Below are positions 11,360 to 16,057 of a stretch of DNA of 37,913 nt, piece after piece. Origin of the DNA: Gemmatimonadota bacterium. GTDB taxonomy: Bacteria; Gemmatimonadota; Gemmatimonadetes; Gemmatimonadales; Gemmatimonadaceae. The stretch spans positions 1 to 37,913 of the forward strand of contig JACQBG010000022.1 in NCBI GenBank assembly GCA_016194585.1. The letters run 5' to 3'. Below the pieces are notes generated by a model. It was not told the DNA's origin. It ran no database searches and saw nothing but the letters and a program-made list of their open reading frames with translations. Every line of letters begins with the position of its first letter. The first letter of the stretch is position 1. The translations under genes were made by a program, and so were the position numbers.

Positions 11360-14300
11360 ATGTCGTACGCCGAGCTGCACTGCCATTCCACTTTCTCGAT
11401 GCTCGACGGCGCCGCGCACCCGGAGCAGCTCGTCGCGCGCGCCGTGGAGCTCGGACTCGGCGCGCTCGCGCTCACCGATCACGACGACGTGGGGGGCGCG
11501 GTGCGGTTCGCGACGGCGTCGAAGGCGGCGGGGTTCGCGGGGATCATCGGCGTGGAGTTGACGCTCGAGATCGCGCTGCCCGGTGCGCGAGCGGGCGACG
11601 CGCATGGTGCGCGGTCGTCCTCGGCCGCGCTCGGTGCGCGGTCGTCCTCGGCCGCGCTCGGTGCGCGGTCGTCCTCGGCCGCGCACGGTGCGCGGTCGGG
11701 CGTGACCGAGCATTCCCTTCGCGATGCTCTCGGACCGCTGCGCGGTCCTGCGGCCGCATCGCGGCGGGAACGCTCGGCCCCGCCCTCCCCAGGCACGGGT
11801 GCGGCGGATGGCGTGCGCGCTCTGCGCACCGATGCCCGGGCGACGCCCCTGTTGCACGCCATGCCACGCGACACGTACGCGGGCGAGAACACGGGCGTGT
11901 CCCCGGCATCGGCCCGCCCGGAGGCAGCGCGGGAGGGGCACGAGTCCGTTTTCGAGAGGCGGCCGCAGGACCGCGCAGCGGTCCGAGAGCCTCGCGAAAA
12001 CGGACTCGTGCCCCGACCAAGCGGGGGATCGCGACCAAGCGACAGCGCCCGACCAAGCGATGAAAGGACACTCACGCACTTGGTCCTCCTCGCCGAGGAC
12101 CGCGAGGGATACGGCAACCTCTGCACGCTCGTGACGCGCGCGCGGCTCGACCATCCGCGCGGGCGCCCGCGCGTGGACCTCGACACGCTCGCGCGCCACG
12201 CCGGCGGACTGTTCGCGCTCACCGGCTGTCCGCGCGGCTGGGTGCCGCGCCTCGTCGCGCGCGGCCGCGCCGATGCGGCGTGCGACGCCGCCGCGTCGCT
12301 CATCGACATCTTCGAGCGCCGCATCGCCATCGAGTGCTGGGACCACGCGCTCCCCGAGGAGCGCGCCGTCACGCGCGAGCTCATCGCGCTCGCCCGCGCG
12401 CTCGACGTGCCGTGGGTCGTCACCAACGACGCGCACTACGCCGCGCCCACGGGGCGGCTCGCCCACGACGTGCTCGTGGCGCTCCGGCACGGCGCGACGC
12501 TCGACGAGATGGGGACGCGCCTGCGCCCCAACGGCGAGTGGTACCTCAAGGGGCCCGCGCAGATGGCGCGCCGCTGGCAGGGCTACGAATCGGGACTCGC
12601 GGCCACGCTCGCCATCGCCGAGCGGTGCGCGTTCCGGCTCGAGGACGTGAAGCCGTCGTTGCCCACCTTCCCGCTCCCGCCGGGGGTGAGCGACGACGCC
12701 TACCTCGCGCAGCTCGTGCAGCAGGGCGCCGACGAGCGGTGGGGATGGCGCCGCACGGCACGCCACGACGCGCAGATCGAGCACGAGCTCACGCTCATCG
12801 CCAAGCTCGGCCTCGCCGGCTACTTCCTCATCGTGTGGGATATCGTGCGCTTCGCGCGCCGCGAGGGGATCCTCTGCCAGGGGCGCGGCTCGGCGGCGAA
12901 CAGCGCCGTGTGCTACGCGCTCGGCATCACGGCGGTGGACCCGATCAAGCTGGAATTGCTGTTCGAGTGCTTCCTCAGTGAAGAGCGCAAGGAGGCGCCC
13001 GACATCGACATCGACTTCGCGCACCGCGACCGCGAGCGCGTGCTGCAGTACGTGTACGAGCGCTACGGGCGCGAGCACGCGGCGATGGTGTGCGAGCACA
13101 TCACGTGGCGCGGGCGGAGCGCGGTGCGCGACGCGGCGCGCGTGCTGGGGTTCTCGGTGCAGCAGGCGGAGGCGCTGGCGACGTTCAGCGACCGTTTCTC
13201 GGCGAAGTCGACAGCCGAGGCGCTCCGCGTGGATGGCGTCGCGGGCGACGCGGACGGCGACGTGGCCGACCCGTTCCGCCCGGAGCAGCAGGACGCGAAG
13301 GGGCCGGCGGGGTATTCGAAGGAGCTCGACGCGAAGCGGCTCGCGGAGAATGTCGGCATGGACATGATGACGGGCACGCACGCGGTGACGCGCATGCGGG
13401 CCGAGCGCGAGCAGGCGCGTCGCGAGTTCGGTGCCGGTGCTGCTGGTGCGCGGTCGGTCGGGGCAGATATTGCTCCCCGCGATGCTCTCGGACCGCTGCG
13501 CGGTCCTGCGGCCGCATCGCGGGGAGCAACATCTGCCCCTCTCTCCCCGGGCAATGGCGCGTCGGATGGTGTGCTCGCGTCGCGCACCGACGCCCGGGCC
13601 ACGCCCGTGCTTCACTCCGCCGCGCCGGTCAGCGACGGGGCAGAGGACACGGGCGTGGCCCAGGCGTCGCCGCGCACGGATGCAACGCGGGAGGGAGCCG
13701 TGCCCGTTTTCGAGAGGCGGCCGCAGGACGCCGCAGGCGTCCGAGAGCCTCGCGAAAACGGGCACGGCTCCCGACCAAGCGGTGAGCACAGCGCGAACTC
13801 GCTACTGGAACGCGCGGGGCTCGACCCGCACGATCCACGCGTGCAGCGACTCGCCGACATCGTCGCCGGACTGCACCAGGCGCCGCGCCACCGCGGCATC
13901 CACGTCGGCGGGTTCGTGCTCACGAAGGAGCCGCTGCACACCGTCGTCCCCATCGAGCCCGCGGCGATGGACGAGCGCACCGTCATCCAGTGGGAGAAGG
14001 ACGACCTCGACCCGGTCGGCCTCGTGAAGATCGACCTCCTCGGCCTCGGCATGCTCACCGTGCTGCAGGACTGCCTCAAGTACATCCGCGCGACGCGCGG
14101 CGTGACGCTCGACCTCGGGCAGCTCGACCATCGCGACCAGGCCGTGTACGACGATCTCTGCCGCGCCGACACGGTCGGCGTGTTCCAGGTGGAGAGCCGC
14201 GCGCAGATGAACACGCTGCCGCGCCTCAAGCCGCGCTGCTTCTACGACCTCGTCGTCGAGGTCGCGCTCATCAGGCCCGGCCCCATCCAGGGCGACATGG

Positions 14301-16057
14301 TGCATCCGTACCTGCGGCGGCGCGCCGGCGAGGAAGCGGTCACGTATCCGCATCCGTCGCTCGAACCGATCCTCAGGCGCACGATGGGGGTGCCGCTCTT
14401 CCAGGAGCAGGGGATGCAGGTCGCGATCGCCGCCGCGGGATTCACGCCGGGGGAGGCGGATGTGCTGCGCAAGGCGATGGGGCACAAGCGCAGTCGCGAG
14501 CGCATGGCCGACATCTGCGCGAAGATGATCGCCGGCATGCGCGCCAACGGCATCCCCGAGGACGTGGCGCTCAGGATCTACAACCAGATCAACGCCTTCG
14601 CCGACTACGGTTTTCCGGAGAGCCACGCGGCGAGCTTCGCGCTCATCGTGTATGGCAGCGCGTACCTGCGGCACTACTACGCGCCGGAGTATCTCTGCGC
14701 GATGCTCAACGCGCAGCCGATGGGATTCTACTCGGCGGGGACGCTCGTCGAGGATGCGAAGCGGCACGGCGTGCGCGTGCTGCCGGTGGACGCGACGCGC
14801 TCGGCGTGGGACCACACGCTCGAGTGCGCGGACGGCACGGTGATCGTGCCGCACGACGGGGTGATCGCGGTGCACGCTGGTGCTGGCGCTGGTGCAGCGT
14901 CCGACGCATTCGGTGCGCGGTCGGGCGTGACCGCGCATTCCCTTCGCGAGGCTCTCGGACCGCTGCGCGGTCCTGCGGCCGCTTCGCGGCGGGAACGCGC
15001 GGCCCCGCCCTCCCCAGGCACTGGTGCGTCGGACGGCACGCCCGCAGCACGCATCGATACTCGGGTCACACCCGCGCCACACAGCGTCGCGCACACAGAT
15101 GCCCGGGCCACGCCCGTGCCGCACGCCACGTCGGTCACCGTGGGGGCGGAGAACACGGGCGTGGCCCAAGCATCCGTGCGGGCGGATGCAGCGCGGGAGG
15201 GGCCCGCGTCCGTTTTCGAGAGGCGGCCGCAGGACCGCGAAGCGGTCCGAGAGCCTCGCGAGAACGGGCGCGGGCCCCGACCAAGCGGCGGATCCCGACC
15301 AAGCGGTGAGCCCCGGCCAAGCGGCAAAGCGCCGGCCGTACGCCTCGGCTTTCGCAGCATCCGCGGCCTCGGCTCGCACGCCCGCCAGAAGATCGAGCGT
15401 GCGCTCGAGCGCGGCCCGTTCGCCGGGATCCACGATTTCGTGCAACGCACCGGACTCGACCAACGCGCGCTGCGCTTCGTCGCCGAGAGCGGCGCGCTCG
15501 ACGCGTTCGTGCAGGACGAGCCGCACGCCCGGCGCCGGCGCGTCGCGCTCTGGCGCGTGCTCGAAGCCGTGCGCGGCACCGGCGGCCCGCTCGCGCTCTT
15601 CCCCGAGACCCCCGTGCCCGGCGGGCTGCCCCCGCTCTCCGCACCCGAACTCACCGAGGGCGACTACCGCCTCACCGGCCTTTCATTGAATGGGCACCCC
15701 ATGCGCCACCTGCGGCCGCTCCTCGTGCCGAACGGCGTGCTCACGGCGCGCGACACCGCGCGCCAGCGCGACGGTACGCGGGTCGGCGTGGCGGGGCTCG
15801 TCATCTGCCGGCAGCGCCCGGGCACCGCGAAGGGATTCGTCTTCCTCACCCTCGAAGACGAGACGGGGATGCTCAACGTCGTCGTCACGCCGCAGCGGTT
15901 CGAGCGGCAGGCGCTGCTCATCACGCGCTCGCCGCTGCTGCTCGTGCGCGGCACGCTGCAGATCGAGCAGCGCGTCGTGAACCTGCGCGGCGAGGAGTTC
16001 ATCGCCCTTGGCGCGACCGCGGGAGCGGCACACGCCAAGAGCCATGACTTTCATTGA
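11360..16057 (+). CDS. dnaE2: Error-prone DNA polymerase III alpha subunit DnaE2 with three large insertions
   Basis: The protein has 1565 residues, against about 1050-1100 for ordinary DnaE2/ImuC. The N-terminal PHP domain starts YAELHCHSTFSMLDGA. The polymerase core includes GRGSAANSAVCYALG and PDIDIDF, whose Asp residues (548, 550) bind the catalytic metals. Later blocks are RHRGIHVGGFVLT, KIDLLGLGMLTVLQD, FQVESRAQMNTLPRLKPR, FQEQGMQVAIAAAGF and ADYGFPESHAASFA. The C-terminal OB fold reads GVAGLVICRQRPGTAKGF and LEDETGMLNVVV. DnaE2 performs SOS translesion synthesis with ImuA/ImuB. The excess length is three Arg/Pro/Ala-rich inserts at residues about 75-236, 691-812 and 1173-1323. They sit in loops between conserved blocks and contain no stop or frameshift, so the gene looks functional. 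Unusually it is not adjacent to imuB. Confidence 0.93.
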   Translation: MSYAELHCHSTFSMLDGAAHPEQLVARAVELGLGALALTDHDDVGGAVRFATASKAAGFAGIIGVELTLEIALPGARAGDAHGARSSSAALGARSSSAALGARSSSAAHGARSGVTEHSLRDALGPLRGPAAASRRERSAPPSPGTGAADGVRALRTDARATPLLHAMPRDTYAGENTGVSPASARPEAAREGHESVFERRPQDRAAVREPRENGLVPRPSGGSRPSDSARPSDERTLTHLVLLAEDREGYGNLCTLVTRARLDHPRGRPRVDLDTLARHAGGLFALTGCPRGWVPRLVARGRADAACDAAASLIDIFERRIAIECWDHALPEERAVTRELIALARALDVPWVVTNDAHYAAPTGRLAHDVLVALRHGATLDEMGTRLRPNGEWYLKGPAQMARRWQGYESGLAATLAIAERCAFRLEDVKPSLPTFPLPPGVSDDAYLAQLVQQGADERWGWRRTARHDAQIEHELTLIAKLGLAGYFLIVWDIVRFARREGILCQGRGSAANSAVCYALGITAVDPIKLELLFECFLSEERKEAPDIDIDFAHRDRERVLQYVYERYGREHAAMVCEHITWRGRSAVRDAARVLGFSVQQAEALATFSDRFSAKSTAEALRVDGVAGDADGDVADPFRPEQQDAKGPAGYSKELDAKRLAENVGMDMMTGTHAVTRMRAEREQARREFGAGAAGARSVGADIAPRDALGPLRGPAAASRGATSAPLSPGNGASDGVLASRTDARATPVLHSAAPVSDGAEDTGVAQASPRTDATREGAVPVFERRPQDAAGVREPRENGHGSRPSGEHSANSLLERAGLDPHDPRVQRLADIVAGLHQAPRHRGIHVGGFVLTKEPLHTVVPIEPAAMDERTVIQWEKDDLDPVGLVKIDLLGLGMLTVLQDCLKYIRATRGVTLDLGQLDHRDQAVYDDLCRADTVGVFQVESRAQMNTLPRLKPRCFYDLVVEVALIRPGPIQGDMVHPYLRRRAGEEAVTYPHPSLEPILRRTMGVPLFQEQGMQVAIAAAGFTPGEADVLRKAMGHKRSRERMADICAKMIAGMRANGIPEDVALRIYNQINAFADYGFPESHAASFALIVYGSAYLRHYYAPEYLCAMLNAQPMGFYSAGTLVEDAKRHGVRVLPVDATRSAWDHTLECADGTVIVPHDGVIAVHAGAGAGAASDAFGARSGVTAHSLREALGPLRGPAAASRRERAAPPSPGTGASDGTPAARIDTRVTPAPHSVAHTDARATPVPHATSVTVGAENTGVAQASVRADAAREGPASVFERRPQDREAVREPRENGRGPRPSGGSRPSGEPRPSGKAPAVRLGFRSIRGLGSHARQKIERALERGPFAGIHDFVQRTGLDQRALRFVAESGALDAFVQDEPHARRRRVALWRVLEAVRGTGGPLALFPETPVPGGLPPLSAPELTEGDYRLTGLSLNGHPMRHLRPLLVPNGVLTARDTARQRDGTRVGVAGLVICRQRPGTAKGFVFLTLEDETGMLNVVVTPQRFERQALLITRSPLLLVRGTLQIEQRVVNLRGEEFIALGATAGAAHAKSHDFH
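11582..12067. repeat. Palindromic insertion element in dnaE2, copy 1
   Basis: This stretch interrupts the PHP domain. Order of parts: three 27-bp tandem repeats (11606-11686); a hairpin at 11704-11779 whose inner stem is GGACCGC/GCGGTCC; a degenerate middle inverted repeat around GATGCC and GGCATC; a second hairpin at 11935-12014 with perfect 20-bp arms (11935-11954 and 11995-12014); then three 18-bp units carrying CGACCAAGCG. The 31 bases at 11727-11757 are the exact reverse complement of 11959-11989, so the two hairpins are inverted copies. Translation gives about 162 residues and keeps the frame. Confidence 0.85.
11606..11697. repeat. 27-bp tandem repeat in dnaE2 insertion 1
   Basis: Three nearly identical units (11606-11632, 11633-11659, 11660-11686) are followed by a partial fourth. 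Each contains GGTGCGCGGTCG and encodes nine residues, read as GARSSSAAL. The unit's CGCGGTCG motif is an approximate complement of CGACCAAGCG found at the other end of the insertion. Confidence 0.85.
13430..13795. repeat. Palindromic insertion element in dnaE2, copy 2
   Basis: The same architecture is inserted after the conserved block ending EQARREF and before LLERAGLDPHDPR. Hairpin one spans 13460-13539 with 26-base arms matching at 25 positions and the inner stem GGACCGC/GCGGTCC. The middle inverted repeat uses GACGCC and GGCGTC around the CACGCCCGTG/CACGGGCGTG pair (20 of 22 paired). Hairpin two spans 13693-13772 with perfect 20-bp arms and an inner stem changed to GGACGCC/GGCGTCC, a change on both sides that keeps the pairing. 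It ends in a single CGACCAAGCG unit. It encodes about 122 residues in frame. Confidence 0.85.
14876..15330. repeat. Palindromic insertion element in dnaE2, copy 3
   Basis: This copy lies between the conserved VIVPHDGVIAVHA and AVRLGFRSIRGLG. Hairpin one (14929-15004) has arms matching at 19 of 24 bases and the same GGACCGC/GCGGTCC core. The middle repeat uses GATGC and GCATC around CCACGCCCGTG/CACGGGCGTGG. Hairpin two has 20-bp arms at 15199-15218 and 15259-15278 (18 of 20 paired; loop GAA instead of GCA). It ends with three 18-bp units carrying CGACCAAGCG or CGGCCAAGCG. It encodes about 151 residues and keeps the frame. Confidence 0.85.

Follow-up and report, generated by a model that had tools for sequence, protein, structure and literature searches.

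Hairpins with covarying arms form a family concentrated in the mutasome genes of Gemmatimonadaceae

We analyzed a stretch of 37,913 nucleotides (the window) that makes up one entire contig of assembly G000, a 50-contig, 3.34-Mb genome of a member of the Gemmatimonadaceae. The window carries dnaE2 (imuC), whose open reading frame scores 1235 bits against the NCBIfam model for error-prone DNA polymerase (NF004225; cut-off 939) and whose product contains the Pfam domains PHP, DNA_pol3_alpha, finger, HHH_6, and OB. Three inserts lie in the gene (Table 1), and all are copies of one composite element of about 360-410 nt, in which hairpin 1 is followed by a spacer palindrome and then by hairpin 2, carrying the same core reversed. 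About four units of a tandem 27-nt repeat (GGTGCGCGGTCGTCCTCGGCCGCGCTC-like; window positions 11599-11706) abut hairpin 1 of copy 1. We rejected the idea that the inserts are skipped or bypassed in the manner of introns or byp elements, as they are open and in phase with the gene, although open frames are weak evidence in a GC-rich genome.

Table 1. Positions of dnaE2, its three composite elements, and their palindromic parts in the window.
Feature	Position	Strand	Description
dnaE2 (ImuC)	11360..16057	+	Error-prone DNA polymerase III alpha-like, 1565 aa; 3 in-frame inserts
Composite element copy 1	11687..12060	+	Site 1, in the PHP-domain loop; follows residue 71 of the reference, the uninterrupted DnaE2 of G010
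Copy 1 hairpin 1	11702..11781	+	Core 11727-11756; CTCTCGG strand +
Copy 1 middle palindrome	11831..11910	.	GATGC/GCATC; arms at 11831/11906
Copy 1 hairpin 2	11935..12014	-	Core 11960-11989; CTCTCGG strand -
Composite element copy 2	13445..13800	+	Variable DnaE2 linker, site 2, after reference residue 473
Copy 2 hairpin 1	13460..13539	+	Core 13485-13514
Copy 2 middle palindrome	13589..13668	.	GACGC/GCGTC; arms at 13589/13664
Copy 2 hairpin 2	13693..13772	-	Core 13718-13747; apical stem GGACGCC/GGCGTCC
Composite element copy 3	14912..15325	+	Site 3, reference residues 838-855, between finger and HHH domains
Copy 3 hairpin 1	14927..15006	+	Core 14952-14981
Copy 3 middle palindrome	15098..15174	.	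GATGC/GCATC; arms at 15098/15170
Copy 3 hairpin 2	15199..15278	-	Core 15224-15253

Each hairpin comprises an outer stem of ~25 bp, an unpaired and asymmetric TCTC/TGCGGCC internal loop, a 7-bp apical stem, and a 3-nt loop. The core, CTCTCGG..loop..CCTGCGGCCG, is near-invariant; the outer stem is almost free in sequence while its pairing is kept. The arm sequences that an initial annotation of this locus had quoted are present in the window. That annotation also gave every hairpin 2 its own matching partner, which is true of copy 1 (GGGGCACGAGTCC, from 11935, with GGACTCGTGCCCC) and copy 2 (GGGAGCCGTGCCC, from 13693, with GGGCACGGCTCCC); in copy 3, GGGGCCCGCGTCC (from 15199) matches GGGCGCGGGCCCC at 12 of 13 positions, the remaining one being a T·G pair. 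The inner stem of hairpin 2 reads GGACCGC/GCGGTCC in copies 1 and 3 and GGACGCC/GGCGTCC in copy 2, as had been described, and the middle repeat differs in copy 2 as claimed (Table 1). In hairpin 1 the inner stem is GGACCGC in all three copies. When folded with single-strand DNA parameters, the six window hairpins gave z values from -3.2 to -10.9 relative to dinucleotide-shuffled sequence.

The initial annotation did not recognize these hairpins as members of a dispersed family that favors mutasome genes. We searched for the exact core pattern, CTCTCGGACN9GTCCTGCGGCCG, and found it at eight places in the window’s genome: the six in dnaE2, one in an ImuA-like gene, and one in an ImuB-like gene, the latter two on contig C46. 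Among 84,980 species genomes the exact core occurs in 17 stretches, all from Gemmatimonadota. A covariance model built from these copies (R1) and run on 179 family genomes identified 53 places (strands merged by hand) in 20 genomes, with no more than eight distinct hairpin places per genome. Across a phylum sample, 17 of 395 genomes were positive, all within four Gemmatimonadaceae genera; because its filters were stricter and its model had been trained on these same copies, this search could overlook remoter relatives. Neither viral contigs, in which the core is absent, nor 50,697 phage records, among which blastn found no match, point to a phage origin, and Rfam yielded just two matches, both under their gathering scores. 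A literature search on Gemmatimonadota and on dnaE2/imuB hairpins returned no description by title or start of abstract, with subscription journals thinly covered.

Of the 53 model places, 33 fall within the SOS “mutasome” genes dnaE2, imuA-like, and imuB-like, among them all eight in the window’s genome; we estimate that these three genes make up roughly 0.2% of a genome. The other 20 lie outside these genes, and those inspected appear intergenic as judged from ORF layout. Hairpins occur as inverted pairs, in the order + then -, in all three window copies and in G009, G010, G017, G122, G123, G124, and G140; single hairpins exist in the family too. One inverted pair (G009, L068 3244-3474) sits ~2 kb downstream of dnaE2, by eye between desaturase-like and dipeptidase-like ORFs. 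The 5' flank, also judged by eye, is GGTCGG in most copies of genera g1 and g31 and GCGG-like in g29. Outside the mutasome genes, a further subfamily (L176 on G122:C76, L175, L177, and L178) combines a longer apical stem with paired variable arms, with at most three copies per contig. In distant non-genic subfamilies matched by the covariance model, the loop motif recurs, and by eye an A·C is present in the stem in G016 and G122.

We extracted 38 distinct hairpins sharing the core and aligned their arms by offset from it. All 38 have complementary arms: 35 are paired out to about 25 bp, and the other three (L061 and two of L072) pair by eye once a small arm indel is allowed. After setting aside one identical duplicate and the three hairpins with arm indels, the remaining 34 formed a gap-free alignment (A1), and all of them share an unchanged TCTC/TGCGGCC internal loop. 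Changes on both sides affect 24 of the 26 outer pairs in A1, with 244 double-changed cells compared with 71 ± 8 in shuffles (0/500 shuffles), and a covariation score of 0.548 compared with 0.149 shuffled (0/500). Overall 92.3% of cells are paired, falling to 41.0-47.5% when partners are slid by 1-3 columns. Because shuffles leave relatedness in the data, we give more weight to the slid control and to the in-place comparisons below. Flip-type double changes (GC to CG or AT to TA) make up 87 cells and transition-type ones 89, which puts the two at about the same frequency, and whole outer-arm blocks differ between copies within one genome. Outer arms differ at 0.33-0.48 per site and flanks at 0.22-0.29, a modest difference from which we make no claim of accelerated arm change.

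The same pattern is seen where hairpins occupy one site in sister species. At dnaE2 site 2, all six pairs that differ between G119 and G123 changed on both sides, with a mid-stem A·C mismatch kept. The other pairs, formed among the antisense site-2 copies of genus g29, show 1 to 6 two-sided changes, and 2 to 6 positions involve a mismatch. Fourfold sites of the compared dnaE2 pairs differ by about 32-41%. The site-2 copies seem to be old and vertically inherited, yet they are still paired. A wider set of copies with independently mutating arms, sought both in the 34-copy alignment and in these in-place pairs, was not found; the earlier argument that random drift would break the pairing is borne out, with drift excluded by the alignment statistics and the in-place comparisons together.

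The mismatch itself is informative. In 17 of the 38 copies a 5'-arm A faces a 3'-arm C at bp 15/16, and two copies have the reverse polarity, C·A, at bp 15; the A·C stays on one element strand regardless of how the copy is oriented in the gene. Genus g29 has four antisense copies at site 2, of which three keep the A·C and one, G124, has G-C. The A·C persists in G119, G122, G123, and G127 while nearby pairs flip; as copying from arm to arm would erase such a mismatch, the structure itself seems to be kept. The hairpins at L121 4436 (G119) and L119 3301 (G123) belong to the same arms family in opposite orientation, with the A·C still on the CTCTCGG strand, and the G119 site-2 hairpin may have been inverted or reinserted as a whole. 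In the apical loop, TGC is the commonest sequence on the CTCTCGG strand of the 38 hairpins, and GCA, its inverse and the product expected from loop inversion, occurs on that strand in none of them.

We then compared where the hairpins sit in their host genes. The ImuA-like protein has ImuA as its best NCBIfam match at 67.5 bits, under the cut-off of 150, with a RecA domain above cut-off; the IMS domain of the ImuB-like protein is barely over its cut-off. In all 33 mutasome copies (12 sense, 21 antisense) the reading frame is open through the hairpin, and a preferred frame is used throughout: sense copies encode LGPLRGPAA in 12 of 12 cases if G017 is read in the imuA frame (11 of 12 in the imuB frame), and antisense copies encode RPQD-type or AAGPRSGPRA-type peptides. 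The two G017 copies were framed by imuB, and the contig there ends inside imuA. The imuA copy of G010/G017 is flanked by repeated half-hairpins. DnaE2 proteins of the family have a long variable linker at site 2, where hairpins occur in four genera; their linkers at sites 1 and 3 are shorter. Unrelated simple-repeat palindromes occupy the same dnaE2 sites in sister species (G001, G120, G125, G126, G128, G122, and G138). Examples with GGATGG-type arms and CCATCC-type partners are seen at L112 (G126), L101 (G125), L103 (G128), and L087 (G001). A different insert, near reference residue 893 and encoding a TTEGTEHTENG-like peptide, is present at L099, L094, and L095 (G137, G140, and G146), and inserts of this type have their own inverted repeat in some g31 genomes.

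We surveyed 61 dnaE2 loci, namely the window and 60 of roughly 105 close orthologues picked by rank and genus spread, for strong hairpins, defined by a score of at least 18 and a loop of at most 60. The dnaE2 ORFs contain 27 such hairpins in 217.7 kb, compared with 3 in 209.4 kb of flanking DNA. No strong hairpin was found in 48 of the 61 genes, at a threshold that misses some hairpins with internal loops (for example those of G009, G133, G137, and G149), and none reached it in the dnaE2 of the same-genus genomes G007, G008, G010, G015, and G017. Most family genomes with dnaE2 are likewise without the hairpin. Linker tolerance explains the exact sites; the family’s rarity elsewhere in the same genomes is not explained by tolerance alone. 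The imuA, imuB, and dnaE2 genes adjoin in several relatives (G133, G140, and G149; L067, L070, and L071), making local spread inside one operon plausible, and in the window’s genome dnaE2 and imuAB are on separate contigs.

We considered whether mRNA or peptide, rather than DNA, could be the target of selection. The hairpins lie in presumably transcribed coding regions and are very stable, with the caveat that the folds used DNA parameters, as selection on the mRNA secondary structure of dnaE2/imuAB would lead one to expect. Yet both orientations occur in the same genes, copies exist outside genes, and no Rfam family matched at gathering score. Outside bp 7-9, the 748 cells include 685 Watson-Crick pairs, 36 A·C or C·A, and only 8 G·T or T·G, and the A·C excess is independent of gene orientation (sense 16:2, antisense 19:6; Fisher p = 0.43). 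The orientation test covers 11 copies in sense and 19 in antisense and excludes L015+1536, which is antisense in imuA; with so few cells it has low power and disfavors mRNA selection without excluding it. Taken together, these points make an mRNA target improbable. Selection on the encoded peptide, with palindromy as a by-product, would fit the preferred reading frame of all copies, and we find it hardly credible: the stem arms encode different amino acids in each copy, the outer arms alter residues on both sides together, opposite orientations give unrelated peptides, and non-genic copies retain the structure.

Several known systems resemble this family in part. Rickettsia palindromic elements (RPEs) occur in many kinds of genes. 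They are in-frame palindromic inserts in coding genes (cited in PMC3733652). The family described here shares their in-frame insertion into coding genes, at tolerated sites that would correspond to surface loops of the protein; it belongs to another phylum and appears to differ in sequence. Integron attC sites carry R'/R'' boxes with AAC/GTT and are substrates of the IntI integrase; no constant AAC box was found by eye in our hairpins. Coding palindromes of Nematomorpha mitochondria are also long inverted repeats in genes whose protein function is kept, but in the available part of that report their arms encode conserved protein, whereas the arms here lie in inserted linkers and share a core family (PMC6649704).

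The closest likeness is to REPs and REPINs, for which the accessible sections of the source papers describe short palindromes folding single-stranded, inverted doublets, a mid-stem mismatch, and compensatory changes in REPIN spacers (PMC3116915, PMC8266576). The REP transposase recognizes its target in folded, single-stranded form, and in E. coli it depends on an AA/GC mismatch conserved in the middle of the REP stem (PMC8266576, in part). Our family has a mid-stem irregularity as well (the A·C in some copies, the internal loop in all), and inverted doublets in the window copies and seven further genomes. In contrast to REPs and REPINs, its stem is much longer and freely varying, its copy number is low, and its places are mostly intragenic rather than mainly extragenic. 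A RAYT/Y1 transposase (Y1_Tnp, PF01797) gave no match at E<=1 in the window’s genome; at E<=1e-8 the domain matched in 26 of 179 family genomes, two of which are among the 20 hairpin carriers. The unpaired GTAG (or GTGG-like) 5' tag of REPs was not seen by eye in the hairpin flanks. Given the transposase, the tag, the copy number, and the intragenic placement, we do not file the family as a RAYT-linked REP. Closer in location are the CGTC-tagged, intragenic REPs, which in the portion of text available also lie in DNA repair genes including DnaE2, often the species’ only tagged ORFs, with no dedicated transposase; they differ in having 20-40 bp units, a CGTC tag, and a more fixed sequence, and a mutator link was speculated (Di Nocera et al, 2013; PMC3733652). 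By eye the GGTCGG flank here contains GTCG, with no constant CGTC.

We give roughly even chances to the explanation that selection on the folded DNA strand keeps the arms matched, with template switching perhaps supplying the paired changes. Each unit would fold as one DNA strand into a structure-defined, REP-like hairpin, and the elements are lodged in frame in tolerant linkers of dnaE2, imuA-like, and imuB-like genes, plus some other places. The arms would covary as it is the folded strand that is kept, with its fixed unpaired features and any paired stem, and not the stem sequence, peptide, or mRNA. Selection would act on the single-stranded DNA hairpin through a mobilizing or binding protein, and arm-to-arm template switching would help supply the double changes. 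Some observations sit uneasily with selection on the folded strand: with Y1/RAYT not found in the window’s genome or in nearly all other carriers, a mobilizing enzyme is only hypothetical; the pairing of old vertical site-2 copies goes beyond what selection for transposition alone would give; the A·C is not universal; and flip-type changes fit copying more easily than stepwise change.

These flips, and the differences in entire outer-arm blocks between copies of one genome, would also follow from arm-to-arm template switching during replication (quasipalindrome correction) acting alone, without structure selection. The consulted part of one report documents this process for RNA stems and argues for it as a source of compensatory change (PMC8794818). 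As a sole cause we nevertheless regard it as possible but unlikely, because it does not account for the fixed TCTC/TGCGGCC loop, for the A·C that survives six neighboring flips as the one flaw in the 25-bp stems of G119 and G123, or for the lack of the GCA inversion product in all 38 apical loops. A domesticated regulatory structure, tuning the expression or noise of error-prone synthesis through transcription, translation, or replication, would suit the concentration in three mutasome genes, the site-2 hairpins of four genera, and the different palindromes that sister species carry at these three sites; set against the free variation of hairpin number, site, and orientation, the many dnaE2-bearing genomes without the hairpin, and a tolerant linker that accounts for the sites, it appears rather doubtful. 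The either/or inference of the initial annotation, that paired changes reflect selection for RNA or DNA structure or repair that copies one arm to the other, is supported overall, with mRNA structure and pure arm-copying both disfavored.

REPs in repair genes including DnaE2 have been known since 2013; the covarying hairpin family of Gemmatimonadaceae appears to be a novel form of this known type of element, and the available text of Di Nocera et al (PMC3733652) does not mention Gemmatimonas or treat arm covariation. Any function of the hairpins is putative. More speculatively, and with a low probability in our estimation, a fold-defined hairpin family could have been domesticated in the Gemmatimonadaceae mutasome (DnaE2, ImuA, and ImuB), where folding of single-stranded DNA, for example at stalled SOS forks, would couple DNA stress to mutasome output or to hairpin spread. 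The family offers an unusually clean case of DNA-level compensatory change inside protein-coding genes, with many copies, fixed unpaired features, and in-place sister comparisons, and it lets selection on structure be told apart from template-switch copying. Its concentration in the mutasome sharpens the question, raised in part of the 2013 study (PMC3733652), of why palindromic repeats occupy repair and mutator genes.
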